Positions 783-61,925 of a stretch of 64,000 nucleotides of DNA are shown in pieces. Both the position numbers and the translations under genes were made by a program. Each line of letters starts with the position of its first letter. The first letter of the stretch is position 1. This DNA is from Thiohalobacter thiocyanaticus (GTDB lineage Bacteria > Pseudomonadota > Gammaproteobacteria > Thiohalobacterales > Thiohalobacteraceae), in NCBI RefSeq assembly GCF_002356355.1, contig NZ_AP018052.1, forward strand, positions 3,088,501 through 3,152,500. The letters are read 5' to 3'. Below the pieces are notes generated by a model. It was not told where the DNA came from, made no database searches, and saw only the letters and a list, made by a program, of their open reading frames with translations.

Positions 783-815
783 GCGCCACGGAATACACGG
801 AAGGCACGGAATACT
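783..815. repeat. Single arm of CCACGGAA-type repeat
   Basis: CGCCACGGAATACACGG followed by AAGGCACGGA belongs to the CCACGGAAAGCACGGA family, seen as paired arms at 4620-4728 and 11457-11568. No matching inverted arm is visible here, so this is a solo or decayed copy. Confidence 0.6.
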
Positions 816-4619: not shown

Positions 4620-4728
4620 GGCCACGGAAAGCACGGAAAGCACGGAAAAACACCTGAATTTCGGGCCGGGCGCGAAGCGCCCCGGCGGAAAACGCGAACA
4701 AGTCCGTGCTTTCCGTGTAGTCCGTGGC
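4620..4728. repeat. CCACGGAA-type inverted-repeat element
   Basis: Left arm GGCCACGGAAAGCACGGAAA and right arm TCCGTGCTTTCCGTGTAGTC then CGTGGC are inverted copies around a GC-rich palindrome (GGGCCGGGCGCGAAGCGCCC at 4662-4681). It sits in the leader of rplM. Confidence 0.75.
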
Positions 4729-9221: not shown

Positions 9222-9309
9222 CTATCCAACTTTGGCGCTGTAAACGCAGAGGGCGCAGAGGCGCGGAGACGCAAAGGAAATATAAGGATATTTCGTCATC
9301 GCGAGTCTC

Positions 9310-9389
9310 GTAGGTCGGGTTAGCGCAGCGTAACCCGACAGTGTCCGGGTACAACGTCGGATTACGCCCTTCGGGCTAATCCGACCTAC
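9310..9389. repeat. REP pair, type A, nested
   Basis: GTAGGTCGGGTTAGCGCAGC then GTAACCCGACA, with inverted CGTCGGATTACGCCCTTCGG then GCTAATCCGACCTAC, inside the larger ACGCAGAG element. Confidence 0.85.
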
Positions 9390-9448
9390 GAAGCTGAGCC
9401 GGACAAGCCCAACACAAGAGAACCCCGCGTCAGCCAGTACGTATTCCC

Positions 9449-9519
9449 CGTCATCCCGGCGAAGGCCGGGATCCAGATACCGCGGCGGGTACTGGATTCC
9501 CGCCTTCGCGGGAATGACG
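9449..9519. repeat. TCATCCCGGCGAAGGC-type inverted pair, nested
   Basis: CGTCATCCCGGCGAAGGCCG and, inverted, CCCGCCTTCGCGGGAATGAC. Each arm is itself a small hairpin (CGGCGAAGGCCGG). This intergenic family is widespread in proteobacteria. Confidence 0.8.
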
Positions 9520-9586
9520 GGAAGGGGGGATAGTCGGCTTTCTCCTGGATTTTCCTCTGCGCCCTCTGCGTTACACAGCACCTGGC

Positions 9587-11456: not shown

Positions 11457-11568
11457 GCCACGGAAGACACGGAAAGCACGGACGATTTCTTAATTGTCAT
11501 TGCCTGGGTGCTGCGCACCCGGGCAATGACAAAGCCTGAGTGTGCGCTTGTCCGTGCTTTCCGTGGCC
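11457..11568. repeat. CCACGGAA-type element with an inner 35-base palindrome, between trpD and trpG
   Basis: Arms GCCACGGAAGACACGGAAAG and, inverted, TCCGTGCTTTCCGTGGC enclose GTCATTGCCTGGGTGCTGCG..CCCGGGCAATGAC (11496-11530). The inner palindrome has the GTCATTGC ends of another repeat family, so one element appears nested in another. Confidence 0.75.
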
Positions 11569-11577
11569 ATCTTCATA

Positions 11578-12159
11578 TCAGGTGTTTTTCAGGAAATTGC
11601 GCAGCATGGCATGGCCGTGCTGGGTCAGGATCGACTCGGGGTGGAACTGCACCCCCTCGATCGGCAGCTCCCGGTGACGCACGCCCATGATCTCGTCCAG
11701 CTCGCCGGCCGCGTCCAGGGTCCAGGCCGTCACCTCCAGACAGTCGGGCAGGCTTTCCTTTTCGATCACCAGCGAGTGATAACGGGTCGCCTCCAGCGGG
11801 CTGGGCAGGTCATGGAAGACACCGACATCCTTGTGATACACCTGCGAGGTCTTGCCGTGCATGATGGCGCCGGCGTGGACAATACGCCCGCCGAAGGCCT
11901 GGCCGATGCTCTGATGCCCCAGGCATACGCCCAGAATCGGCAGTCTGCCGGCGAAATGCCGGATCGCCTCCACCGATATCCCGGCCTCGGTCGGCGTACA
12001 GGGGCCGGGCGAGATCACCAGGTGATCCGGGCGCATGGCCTCGATCTCCGCCACCGTGATCCGGTCGTTGCGGAACACCCGCACGTCCTCCCCCAACTCG
12101 CCCAGGTACTGGACCAGGTTGTAGGTGAAGGAGTCGTAGTTGTCGATCATTACCAGCAT
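11578..12159 (-). CDS. trpG: Anthranilate synthase component II (glutamine amidotransferase)
   Basis: 193 residues, a class I glutamine amidotransferase that feeds ammonia to TrpE. The oxyanion motif [12 protein letters not shown], the nucleophile Cys79 in [10 protein letters not shown], and the His-Glu pair in VQFHPESIL are all present. Start [20 protein letters not shown] is the family standard. The 36 bases upstream lead directly into the repeat-bounded GxxExxY cassette that separates it from trpE. Confidence 0.97.
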
Positions 12160-12175: not shown

Positions 12176-12618
12176 TAACGCAGAGGACGCAGAGTTTATA
12201 AGGAATTCACAACTCTGTAGACGCCCTGTTTGATGACAGGAACCCGGAAGTTGAGCAACAGACCAAGCTTCCTGTTCATCAGCCTCAAGTATGTCAGCAA
12301 TTGCGCTTTATGTACCTCTTCGACTTTTTCGATTGATTTCAACTCGAGCACCAGGCAGTTCTCGACCAGAAAATCGGCGCGACAGGCCCGGTCCAGCACC
12401 AGCCCCTTGTAATTGATCGCAATCGGCACTTCGGTCTCGAACCCGATCCCCTGCAATCGCAGCTCGTGTGCCAGACATTCACTATACGCCGACTCGAGTA
12501 ACCCGGATCCCAATGCCCGATGCACCTCAATGGCTGCGCCGATCGCAGCTCCTGCAACCTGATTTTCCAGCATTACGCATTCCTTTGCGCCTCTGCGTCT
12601 CCGCGTCCTCTGCGTTAA
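12176..12618. mobile_element. Repeat-bounded cassette carrying a GxxExxY nuclease gene
   Basis: The left arm is TAACGCAGAGGACGCAGAG (12176-12194). The right arm, read inverted, is TTAACGCAGAGGACGCGGAG continuing into ACGCAGAGGCGCAAAGGA (12618-12582). The enclosed gene stops two bases from the left arm, and its ribosome-binding site AAAGGA is the inner end of the right arm. The cassette splits trpE from trpG, which are adjacent in most relatives. Empty copies of the repeat lie at 9241, 14938 and 61804. Confidence 0.75.
12196..12573 (-). CDS. GxxExxY family protein (PD-(D/E)XK nuclease superfamily)
   Basis: 125 residues. The name-giving motif is GLLESAY at residues 24-30 within LGSGLLESAYSECLAHEL. 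A nuclease-like core follows: RADFLVENCLVLELKSIE with Asp67 and Glu77-x-Lys79, then the helix HKAQLLTYLRL with a conserved Gln. These match the metal-binding D..ExK arrangement of the PD-(D/E)XK fold. No function is established for the family. The gene is unrelated to tryptophan synthesis and is packed between ACGCAGAG repeats, which suggests it came in with them. AAAGGA at the repeat edge precedes the ATG. Confidence 0.9.
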   Translation of the reverse strand: MLENQVAGAAIGAAIEVHRALGSGLLESAYSECLAHELRLQGIGFETEVPIAINYKGLVLDRACRADFLVENCLVLELKSIEKVEEVHKAQLLTYLRLMNRKLGLLLNFRVPVIKQGVYRVVNSL

Positions 12619-12624
12619 TTCCCG

Positions 12625-14109
12625 CTATTTATGGCTCCCATCCAAACCCGCCTCCGCCATGGCCACGGCGCGGAAGATGGCGCGGCCCTTGTTCATGGTC
12701 TCGTCCCATTCGTTGCGGGGGATGGAGTCGTGCACGATGCCGGCGCCGGCCTGGATGTGCAGGGCGGCATCCTTGATCACGGCGGTGCGGATGGCGATGG
12801 CGGTGTCCATGTTGCCGTTCCAGGCCAGATAACCGACCGCGCCGGCATAGACGCCGCGCTTGACCGGTTCCAACTCGTCGATGATCTCCATGGCGCGGAT
12901 CTTGGGCGCGCCGCTCACGGTGCCGGCCGGGAAGGTGGCGCGCAGCACATCCATGGCGCTCATGCCCTCGCGCAGTTCTCCGGTGACATTGGAGACGATG
13001 TGCATCACATGCGAGTAGCGCTCGATCACCATCTTCTCGGTCAGCTGCACGCTGCCTGTCTTCGCGATGCGGCCCACGTCGTTGCGGCCCAGATCGATCA
13101 GCATCAGGTGCTCGGCCAGTTCCTTGGGGTCGGCCAGCAGATCGGCTTCCAGCCGCCGGTCCTCGGCCTCGTCGGCGCCGCGCGGGCGGGTGCCGGCGAT
13201 GGGGCGCACCGTGACCTCGCCGTCCTCCAGCCGGGTGAGGATCTCCGGCGAGGAGCCCACCACGTGGAAATCCCCCAGGTCCAGATAGAACATATAGGGC
13301 GAGGGGTTGAGGGTGCGCAGCGCCCGGTACAGGTCCAGCGGCCGGGCCTTGAACGGAATGGACAGGCGCTGGGACAGCACCACCTGCATCACGTCGCCGT
13401 CGACGATGTACTGTTTGGTCCGCTGCACCGCCTCCTCGAACCCGGCCTGGGTGAAGCCGGAGACGAAATCGGTCTCCTCGACCGCGACCGGGGTGGCATT
13501 GACCTGGTGCTTGAGCGGCCGGTCCAGCTGCTGCACCAGGGCATCCAGGCGCGCCTGACCGCGGGCATAGGCCGCCTCGCCGTCGGGCTCGACATGGGTG
13601 ATCAGGAACAGCTTGCCGCGCAGATTGTCGAACACCGCCACTTCCTCGGACACCATCAGCAGGATGTCCGGCACCTGCAGGGTATCGGGATTGGGGCATG
13701 CGGCCAGGCGCGGCTCGATATAGCGGATGGTGTCGTAGCCGAAATACCCGACCAGGCCGCCGGTGAAGCGCGGCAGGCCCTCTATCTCCGGGACCTGGAA
13801 CTGCTGCTGGTAATCGGCGATCCAGGCCAGCGGGTCCTCCACAGTCTCGGTGGCGACCGCCTCCCCGTCCTGCCAGGTGGTGATCTCGTGGCCACTGATG
13901 CGGATCACCCTGGAACAGGGCAGCCCGATGATGGAGTAGCGGCCCCATTTCTCGCCGCCCTGCACGGACTCGAACAGATAGGAATAGGGCCCGTCGGCCA
14001 GTTTCAGGTAAGCACTTAGCGGCGTATCGAAATCGGCCAGGATTTCCCGGGCCAGCGGGATGCGGTTATAGCCCTCGCGGGCCAGCTCGCGGAAGCGGGC
14101 AATGTCCAT
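12625..14109 (-). CDS. trpE: Anthranilate synthase component I
   Basis: 494 residues. It converts chorismate to anthranilate. The N-terminal regulatory part includes [14 protein letters not shown]-like [17 protein letters not shown], close to the LLES tryptophan-feedback motif (here LFES). The catalytic half has [41 protein letters not shown] and AGAGIVHDS. The ATG at 14109 has GAGG upstream; a TTG four codons earlier is less likely. No leader peptide or trp attenuator is apparent in the 120 bases upstream. It follows gph. Confidence 0.97.
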
Positions 14110-14232
14110 CAGACACCTCAAGAGACGAATTCAACGGATACAGCGGTACGACTGACGTATTACTTACGCCATCGCCGGGGCTGATATGTCGAATCCGTCT
14201 GCATGGGTTGCGGTATTGTTATCGTCGTAAAT

Positions 14233-14937: not shown

Positions 14938-15070
14938 TTAACGCAGAGGTCGCAGAGGCGCAGAGACGCAAAGTCATCGATACGCAAACAAACACTCTTT
15001 CAACAATGCAGACTCTCTGATTTTGAATATTTCTATCTCTGCGCCTTTGCGTCTCCGCGTCCTCTGCGTT
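14938..15070. repeat. Empty ACGCAGAG-type element between gph and rpe
   Basis: Left arm TTAACGCAGAGGTCGCAGAG then GCGCAGAGACGCAAAG; right arm inverted AACGCAGAGGACGCGGAGAC then GCAAAGGCGCAGAG. About 60 AT-rich bases lie between the arms with no reading frame. It is the same family that carries the GxxExxY gene at 12176. Confidence 0.8.
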
Positions 15071-57011: not shown

Positions 57012-57038
57012 CAACGCAGAGGCGCAGGGGCGCAGAGA
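57012..57038. repeat. Solo ACGCAGAG-type arm
   Basis: CAACGCAGAGGCGCAGGGGC then GCAGAGA. No inverted partner is found nearby, so this is a solo arm of the family at 12176. Confidence 0.6.
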
Positions 57039-57078
57039 TGGAAAATTTAACCTTAAAAACAATTAGTAAAAGACACCC

Positions 57079-61803: not shown

Positions 61804-61890
61804 TTAACGCAAAGGCCGCAGAGACGCAGAGGCGCAAAGATGAACAGGATTGAATTCTCTGCGTCTCGGCGTCTCCGCGTCCTCTGCGTT
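61804..61890. repeat. Compact empty ACGCAGAG-type element between metF and rsmE
   Basis: TTAACGCAAAGGCCGCAGAG then ACGCAGAGGCGCAAAG, about 15 bases (GATGAACAGGATTGAATT), and inverted AACGCAGAGGACGCGGAGAC then GCCGAGACGCAGAG. The whole unit is a near hairpin. Confidence 0.8.
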
Positions 61891-61925
61891 TCCCGTCACT
61901 GCCCCCAACCCCGTGCGCTGGCGTA

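Follow-up and report, generated by a model that had tools for sequence, protein, structure and literature searches.

The trpE and trpG genes of the window, by which we mean the whole stretch of 64,000 nucleotides that was analysed, are separated by a gene of the GxxExxY family set between two inverted arms of short tandem units, and it appears probable (roughly 58%) that this is a copy of a widespread RAYT/REPIN-like intergenic element built on a Cas4-like nuclease, whose recognition, cutting and copying steps we infer. At the level of sequence, the comparisons described here demonstrate a shared layout, arms that are private to each locus, a link between arm type and protein clade, amplification of arms together with the gene, exchange at fixed sites and selection on the gene. 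As a package, these features point to a small mobile-like element of an undescribed kind; neither a description of a GxxExxY gene-plus-arm element nor an account of dispersed repeats such as CACAGAGGCACAGAG turned up in the literature searched, which was of limited coverage. The GxxExxY family and such repeats would be linked by a protein-to-repeat code that the sequence alone reveals, and this would offer a testable explanation for both.

The trp-operon element and its protein

The GxxExxY gene (TIGR04256/PF13366; 12196..12573, minus strand) encodes a 125-aa protein of the PD-(D/E)XK nuclease family, and its coordinates confirm that the unit separates trpE (12625-14121, minus strand) from trpG (11578-12159, minus strand). 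The trpG-side arm, AACGCAGAGGACGCAGAG (12177..12194), consists of two tandem units and lies one base from the stop codon, where the preliminary description had counted two, while the trpE-side arm, which reads AACGCAGAGGACGCGGAGACGCAGAGGCGCAAAG on the minus strand (12583..12616), consists of four. The arms form a 24-nt inverted pair with 88% complementarity, which together with the TIGR04256 match bears out the placement of a GxxExxY gene in the trp operon within inverted ACGCAGAG arms. The end of the last arm unit supplies AAAGGA (12581..12586, minus strand), which serves as Shine-Dalgarno sequence 7 nt 5' of the ATG at 12573; this second ATG of ATGCGTAATG (12573-12571) is the start codon, the first being out of frame. 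The proposal that the repeat provides the ribosome-binding site thus holds at this locus and fails as a rule for the family, where a Shine-Dalgarno sequence lies within the arm in 16 of 108 genes, stands separately in 47 and is missing in 45; the idea that such a supply by the arm defines the unit is therefore not supported. Within the window ACGCAGAG occurs 12 times, where 2.8 would be expected and none of 100 shuffles reached that count; the excess arises from several inverted pairs of it, most of them gene-less. ACGCAGAG is thus not specific to the gene, and the GxxExxY family uses many other unit sequences. No Rfam match to a known RNA family was found at the trp site.

The protein matches TIGR04256 at 1.8e-40 (137.9 bits, cut-off 35) and PF13366 at 6.8e-39 (133.3 bits, cut-off 22), and PDDEXK_3 is the only Pfam family to reach its cut-off. 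The motif that names the family is G24-L-L-E27-S-A-Y30, where E27 and Y30 are invariant among 49 homologues and G24 is conserved in at least 90%. The catalytic residues Asp67, Glu77 and Lys79, described earlier as intact, are all present, and in the same 49 homologues D67, K79 and Y95 (the latter part of Q91xxxY95) are invariant, with E77 and Q91 conserved in at least 90%. An AlphaFold2 model (pLDDT 96) has the PD-(D/E)XK fold, and its best structural match is Cas4 SSO0001 at Z 9.6, followed by a match at 7.5, with archaeal Hjc and restriction enzymes at Z about 7 and a best Foldseek E of 2e-3. Sequence searches returned no solved homologue and a weak Cas4 resemblance (PADLOC Cas4 models, 6.7e-5); beyond such weak Cas4-type matches no PADLOC system was matched, and identity with a defence system was rejected. 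The D-ExK residues, the QxxxY motif and the fold are shared with Cas4 and the RecB/lambda-exonuclease group, and the GxxExxY protein is predicted to be a Cas4/RecB-type PD-(D/E)XK nuclease. It differs from Cas4 in that it stands alone, with no CRISPR genes beside it. To our knowledge, the GxxExxY family is annotated across bacteria with no function assigned; the literature searched, where coverage was limited and a description elsewhere is possible, mentions it in passing. Within the same limits, nothing was found on the longer arm sequences, and a search with ACGCAGAG gave unrelated papers only.

Arms, protein clades and gene-less copies

The survey comprised 133 loci. Of these, 80 came from GTDB genomes, a sample that favours relatives of the three query proteins; an HMM search through 274 genomes of the class, a sample free of that skew, contributed about 50. 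The arm-gene-arm layout extends over more than ten phyla and includes one archaeon, Methanothrix (L068). When each upstream flank was compared with the reverse complement of its downstream flank, the median score was 20.5; it was 8.5 among 272 ORFs from these loci that served as controls, and 9 when flanks of different loci were paired. Of 110 GxxExxY genes, 95 exceeded the 95th percentile of the controls. Two or more units of a listed type are present in 118 of 133 loci, and most of the remainder have A-rich units visible by eye. Across phyla, the suggested survey of GxxExxY genes for flanking arms found about 86-89% of them armed. The units are tandem, 8-10 nt long and mostly of the form (C)RC(N)RAG, with a unit sequence particular to the locus. 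The neighbouring ORFs lie a median of 510 nt apart, and the element therefore fills the gap between them; among genes with co-directional neighbours, 58 of 66 point the same way and 8 the opposite way, which is what would be expected of an apparently promoterless gene that is read with its operon.

Elements often lie between genes for subunits of one enzyme, such as trpE-trpG, accB-accC and carA-carB (L056, L123, L002, L003), and such conserved junctions could help spread by flank homology. At two places (L238 on contig C11 of G127, and G223 C1:102100-102205) arms have grown locally to at least 10 near-identical 9-nt units. Carriage by phages or plasmids was rejected, with no phage match and GxxExxY genes on 8 of 72,556 plasmids.

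Arm type and protein are linked across the survey. Mapped on the protein tree, which has few columns and many unresolved forks, arm type requires 52 changes, while shuffled labels require 80 (minimum 72). When labels were shuffled within phyla only, the figures were 34 and 41.7, with 0 of 300 shuffles as low. Arm type is partly confounded with host lineage. A Mantel test gave r 0.32 (null sd 0.045), and the deepest supported split in the tree (95%) divides proteins with AG-ending units from those with units ending in AA, AT or TA. Judged by these comparisons, unit sequence follows protein clade.

The presence of a gene also predicts the amplification of its own arm type. Across 38 genomes with GxxExxY and four arm types, at least five extra copies of a type are found in 20 of 23 cases where a gene with that type is present and in 20 of 129 where it is not (odds ratio 36, p 3e-11), the latter being 20 genome-by-type cells with extra copies and no gene of matching type. 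Triple arms and a GxxExxY gene occur together in 17 genomes, where 4.9 would be expected (p 7e-8), and sampled genomes without GxxExxY have almost no arm copies. Exceptions are G082, G240, G127 and G057, which have gene-less pairs, typically of 70-190 bp, and no GxxExxY gene over the cut-off; the arms therefore persist or spread without the gene.

The 3.23-Mb genome from which the window comes (G000) holds three GxxExxY genes with three arm types, where the second (L001) lies beside argG with arm type CCGCCAAGACGCCAAGGGCGCCAAGG and the third (L002) lies between accB and accC with arm type GAGCGCCACGGAATACACGGAAAGCACGGAA. Both of these have a separate GGAGG that is not arm-derived. Counts of double units in this genome, for which a three-unit pattern was too strict given the unit spacing of 1-2 nt, were 58 for CGCAGAG, 20 for CGCCAAG, 228 for CACGGAA and 0 for both CGCAAAG and CACAGAG, with zero matches for the reversed-pattern controls. 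The arms of the three gene types are amplified and two tested types are absent, and each arm type with copies therefore has one gene. Gene-less copies of these arm types number from dozens to hundreds. Near-identical coding copies were not seen within any single genome, which argues that the coding element is not amplified in the manner of an insertion sequence.

Several gene-less copies are found in the window, which has at least three further inverted ACGCAGAG-family pairs. One (9243..9573) has other interspersed repeats inside it; another, with a short spacer (14940..15070), folds as a single long stem (z -7.0); and a nearly empty pair (61806..61891) has a 15-nt loop (z -5.9) and is missing at the same site in G275, a genome of the same genus. 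The latter two are minimal arm pairs that fold far better than shuffles. A single-sided ACGCAGAG arm lies at 57014..57041. The CACGGAA family, to which the arms of the accB-accC gene belong, contributes gene-less pairs at 4622..4727 and, in the trpG-trpD gap, at 11458..11566, along with an arm that was single-sided in the scan (786..812). Between positions 9290 and 9540, other interspersed palindromes (GTAGGTCGGGTTAGC..., CCCGTCATCCCGGCGAAGGCCGGG...) are nested between the arms, and the same is true of many further arm pairs in this genome. Where the own genome has the arm pair at 61806-61891, G275 has a plain terminator-like hairpin, and arm pairs may replace terminators.

Turnover at fixed sites

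Presence or absence at orthologous sites, or exchange there, is a trait of mobile elements, and it was found at both trpE-trpG and accB-accC. The trpE-trpG gap contains a GxxExxY gene in 14 surveyed loci, which belong to four protein clades and are all armed. It is empty in genomes of the same family such as G122, where the sequence runs TAG, one base, ATG. Of the suggested counter-example, a gene in this gap without repeats, no case was found among the 14. In the same-genus genome G274, the GxxExxY protein in the gap has 52% identity to that of G000 and falls in a different clade of the protein tree, with a synonymous difference of 0.81 compared with 0.25 in trpG. The gap in G275 (L165/L242) has kept its arms around a GxxExxY gene cut to its first codons and last few bases, the rest being a REP-like repeat.

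At accB-accC, G275 has a vertical copy of the G000 gene (pS 0.29, compared with 0.25 in accC), and the dN/dS of 0.19 between the two indicates purifying selection on the GxxExxY gene, while the gene of G274 differs by 0.82-0.89, compared with 0.20 in accC. At the sharp edges of the element, identity drops from 94-100% to 44-76% within, and it recovers beyond, with flanks overall at 90-100%. These comparisons indicate that whole elements are replaced at fixed sites (trpE-trpG, accB-accC) within a genus. Exchange of the whole stretch at two sites, together with the arms found in 14 of 14 trpE-trpG genes, upholds the earlier suggestion that gene and arms form one unit.

Gene-less pairs turn over as well, with other interiors, other arm families or no pair at the orthologous sites in G275 or G274. 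At C1:3067091 (G000 compared with G275; L243-L249), a pair of CACGGAA arms encloses 192 nt that are inverted in one genome relative to the other, scoring 151 in the inverted and 49 in the direct orientation, apparently by recombination between the arms. Part of the turnover at fixed sites could reflect ordinary recombination among like arms. At one site in two species of a single genus (L159 in G155, L162 in G266), CACGAATGAA units have given way to CACAGATGGA units in both arms together. A scan of 22 pairs, some few of which overlap, found no target-site duplication (longest direct repeat in the flanks 0.86, with 1.29 in shuffles), and the genomes compared offered no empty site that was clean and had exact boundaries.

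Known systems, proposed mechanism and alternatives

The closest likeness is to REPIN/RAYT, where a few-copy gene within inverted repeats is accompanied by many gene-less pairs, the copies are intergenic and repeat type is tied to protein type (PMC3116915, PMC8266576, PMC8049555). The RAYT protein, however, is an HUH-type transposase acting on REP hairpins, whereas GxxExxY belongs to the PD-(D/E)XK family and its arms are tandem units of 8-10 nt. No HUH (Y1) transposase was found in the trp-site element, for which reason identity with RAYT was rejected, and in place of short REP hairpins, with their conserved tetranucleotide foot, it has the tandem-unit arms. The GxxExxY system would be a nuclease-based counterpart of RAYT/REPIN. 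Short paired inverted termini and gene-less derivatives are also seen in MITEs and DDE insertion sequences, from which the GxxExxY element differs by the internal repetition of its arms; with no DDE transposase in the trp-site element and no target-site duplication found, a DDE element or MITE was rejected. The heptameric intergenic repeats of Xanthomonas and Nostoc, 7-nt G-rich units read as G-quadruplex formers, resemble the arms as short tandem units scattered between co-directional ORFs, with some in inverted pairs, and differ in that the portion of that report drawn on here links no flanked protein gene to them (PMC4692102).

In the element, a pair of inverted arms surrounds the GxxExxY gene, and each arm is made up of 2-4 degenerate tandem units of 8-10 nt. 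In the mechanism we propose, the GxxExxY nuclease would recognise its own arm unit, probably as an extruded hairpin or as single-stranded DNA, and cut there. Host repair or replication would then copy the element, or a gene-less derivative, to other intergenic places or, alternatively, replace a resident element. The few-copy gene would act in trans on many arm pairs, as RAYT acts on REPIN, and a coding element becomes gene-less when an internal deletion removes its gene, of which the trp gap of G275 gives an example.

The main rival explanation, which we regard as unlikely, holds that the arms are dispersed repeats spread by other means, such as host recombination or an unknown trans enzyme, and serve as short homology for cassette exchange in which GxxExxY is a passenger. 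It would account for interiors swapped or inverted between like arms at orthologous sites of one genus, as at C1:3067091, for the replacement of one arm family by another at a single site and for arm-rich genomes without GxxExxY. A neutral passenger, however, would be unlikely to be confined to one arm class (8-10-nt units for GxxExxY, 7-nt units for S23), and it would leave aside that arm type tracks protein clade across phyla and that the gene predicts amplification of its own arm type.

We consider it quite improbable that the host retains the package for regulation or protection, as a device in which the transcribed arms form a long stem in the operon mRNA and the nuclease acts on that stem or on invading DNA. 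The folding of arms far above shuffles (z -5.9, -7.0), the position of the gene within operons in the operon direction (58 to 8), purifying selection and the Cas4-like fold with its weak PADLOC Cas4 match (6.7e-5) fit such a device, but GxxExxY is patchy (42 of 274 genomes of the class) and present or absent at one operon within a family, whole elements are exchanged, gene-less copies run to hundreds and, apart from the likeness to Cas4, no PADLOC system was matched. Ancient vertical descent at fixed sites, in which the protein would evolve very fast and the two arms in concert, with no mobility, agrees with the finding of the gene in shared operon gaps (trpE-trpG, accB-accC) of several genera, yet it is largely excluded by the synonymous contrast, where divergence is saturated in the gene and 0.20-0.25 in the flanking gene within a genus; one pair at the same site shows no synonymous excess, and the trp-gap proteins of G000 and G274 belong to different clades.

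Beside the preferred reading of a mobile-like nuclease element stands a parallel in intergenic S23/four-helix-bundle genes (TIGR02436; L193-L222, same class), which have inverted tandem arms of 7-nt units. Tandem flanks have period 7 in 35 of 36 S23 cases, as do 6 of 254 tandem places in the background, and the period is 8-10 in GxxExxY. Two unrelated proteins thus each have their own unit class, which argues that protein and arms work together. In the 23S intervening sequence (IVS) of Coxiella, an S23 ORF lies within inverted repeats, with tandem heptamers before its start codon, and the IVS has been called a selfish element (PMC4990558). Such 23S IVS/S23 elements resemble the GxxExxY element in having a small ORF between inverted repeats (PMC4990558), and differ from it in their unrelated protein and other unit class, in interrupting the 23S rRNA and in being excised by RNase III. 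The trp-site element has no S23 four-helix-bundle ORF, its protein being PDDEXK_3, and no TIGR02436 match was found in the own genome. The parallel suggests a general principle, in which a small protein is joined to arms of short tandem units, and ties it to rRNA intervening sequences long suspected to be selfish. More tentatively than for the trp-site element itself, and at somewhat less than even odds, GxxExxY may be the enzyme of an undescribed DNA mobility class in Bacteria and Archaea with a clade-specific tandem code, a stand-alone Cas4-like nuclease reading that code in inverted arms and moving or copying arm pairs, with S23 as a second, independent 7-nt solution, and the two together may lie behind many of the short inverted repeats dispersed in prokaryote genomes. 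Some genomes rich in CACAGAG arms and without GxxExxY (G057, G127, G178, G194) carry S23.
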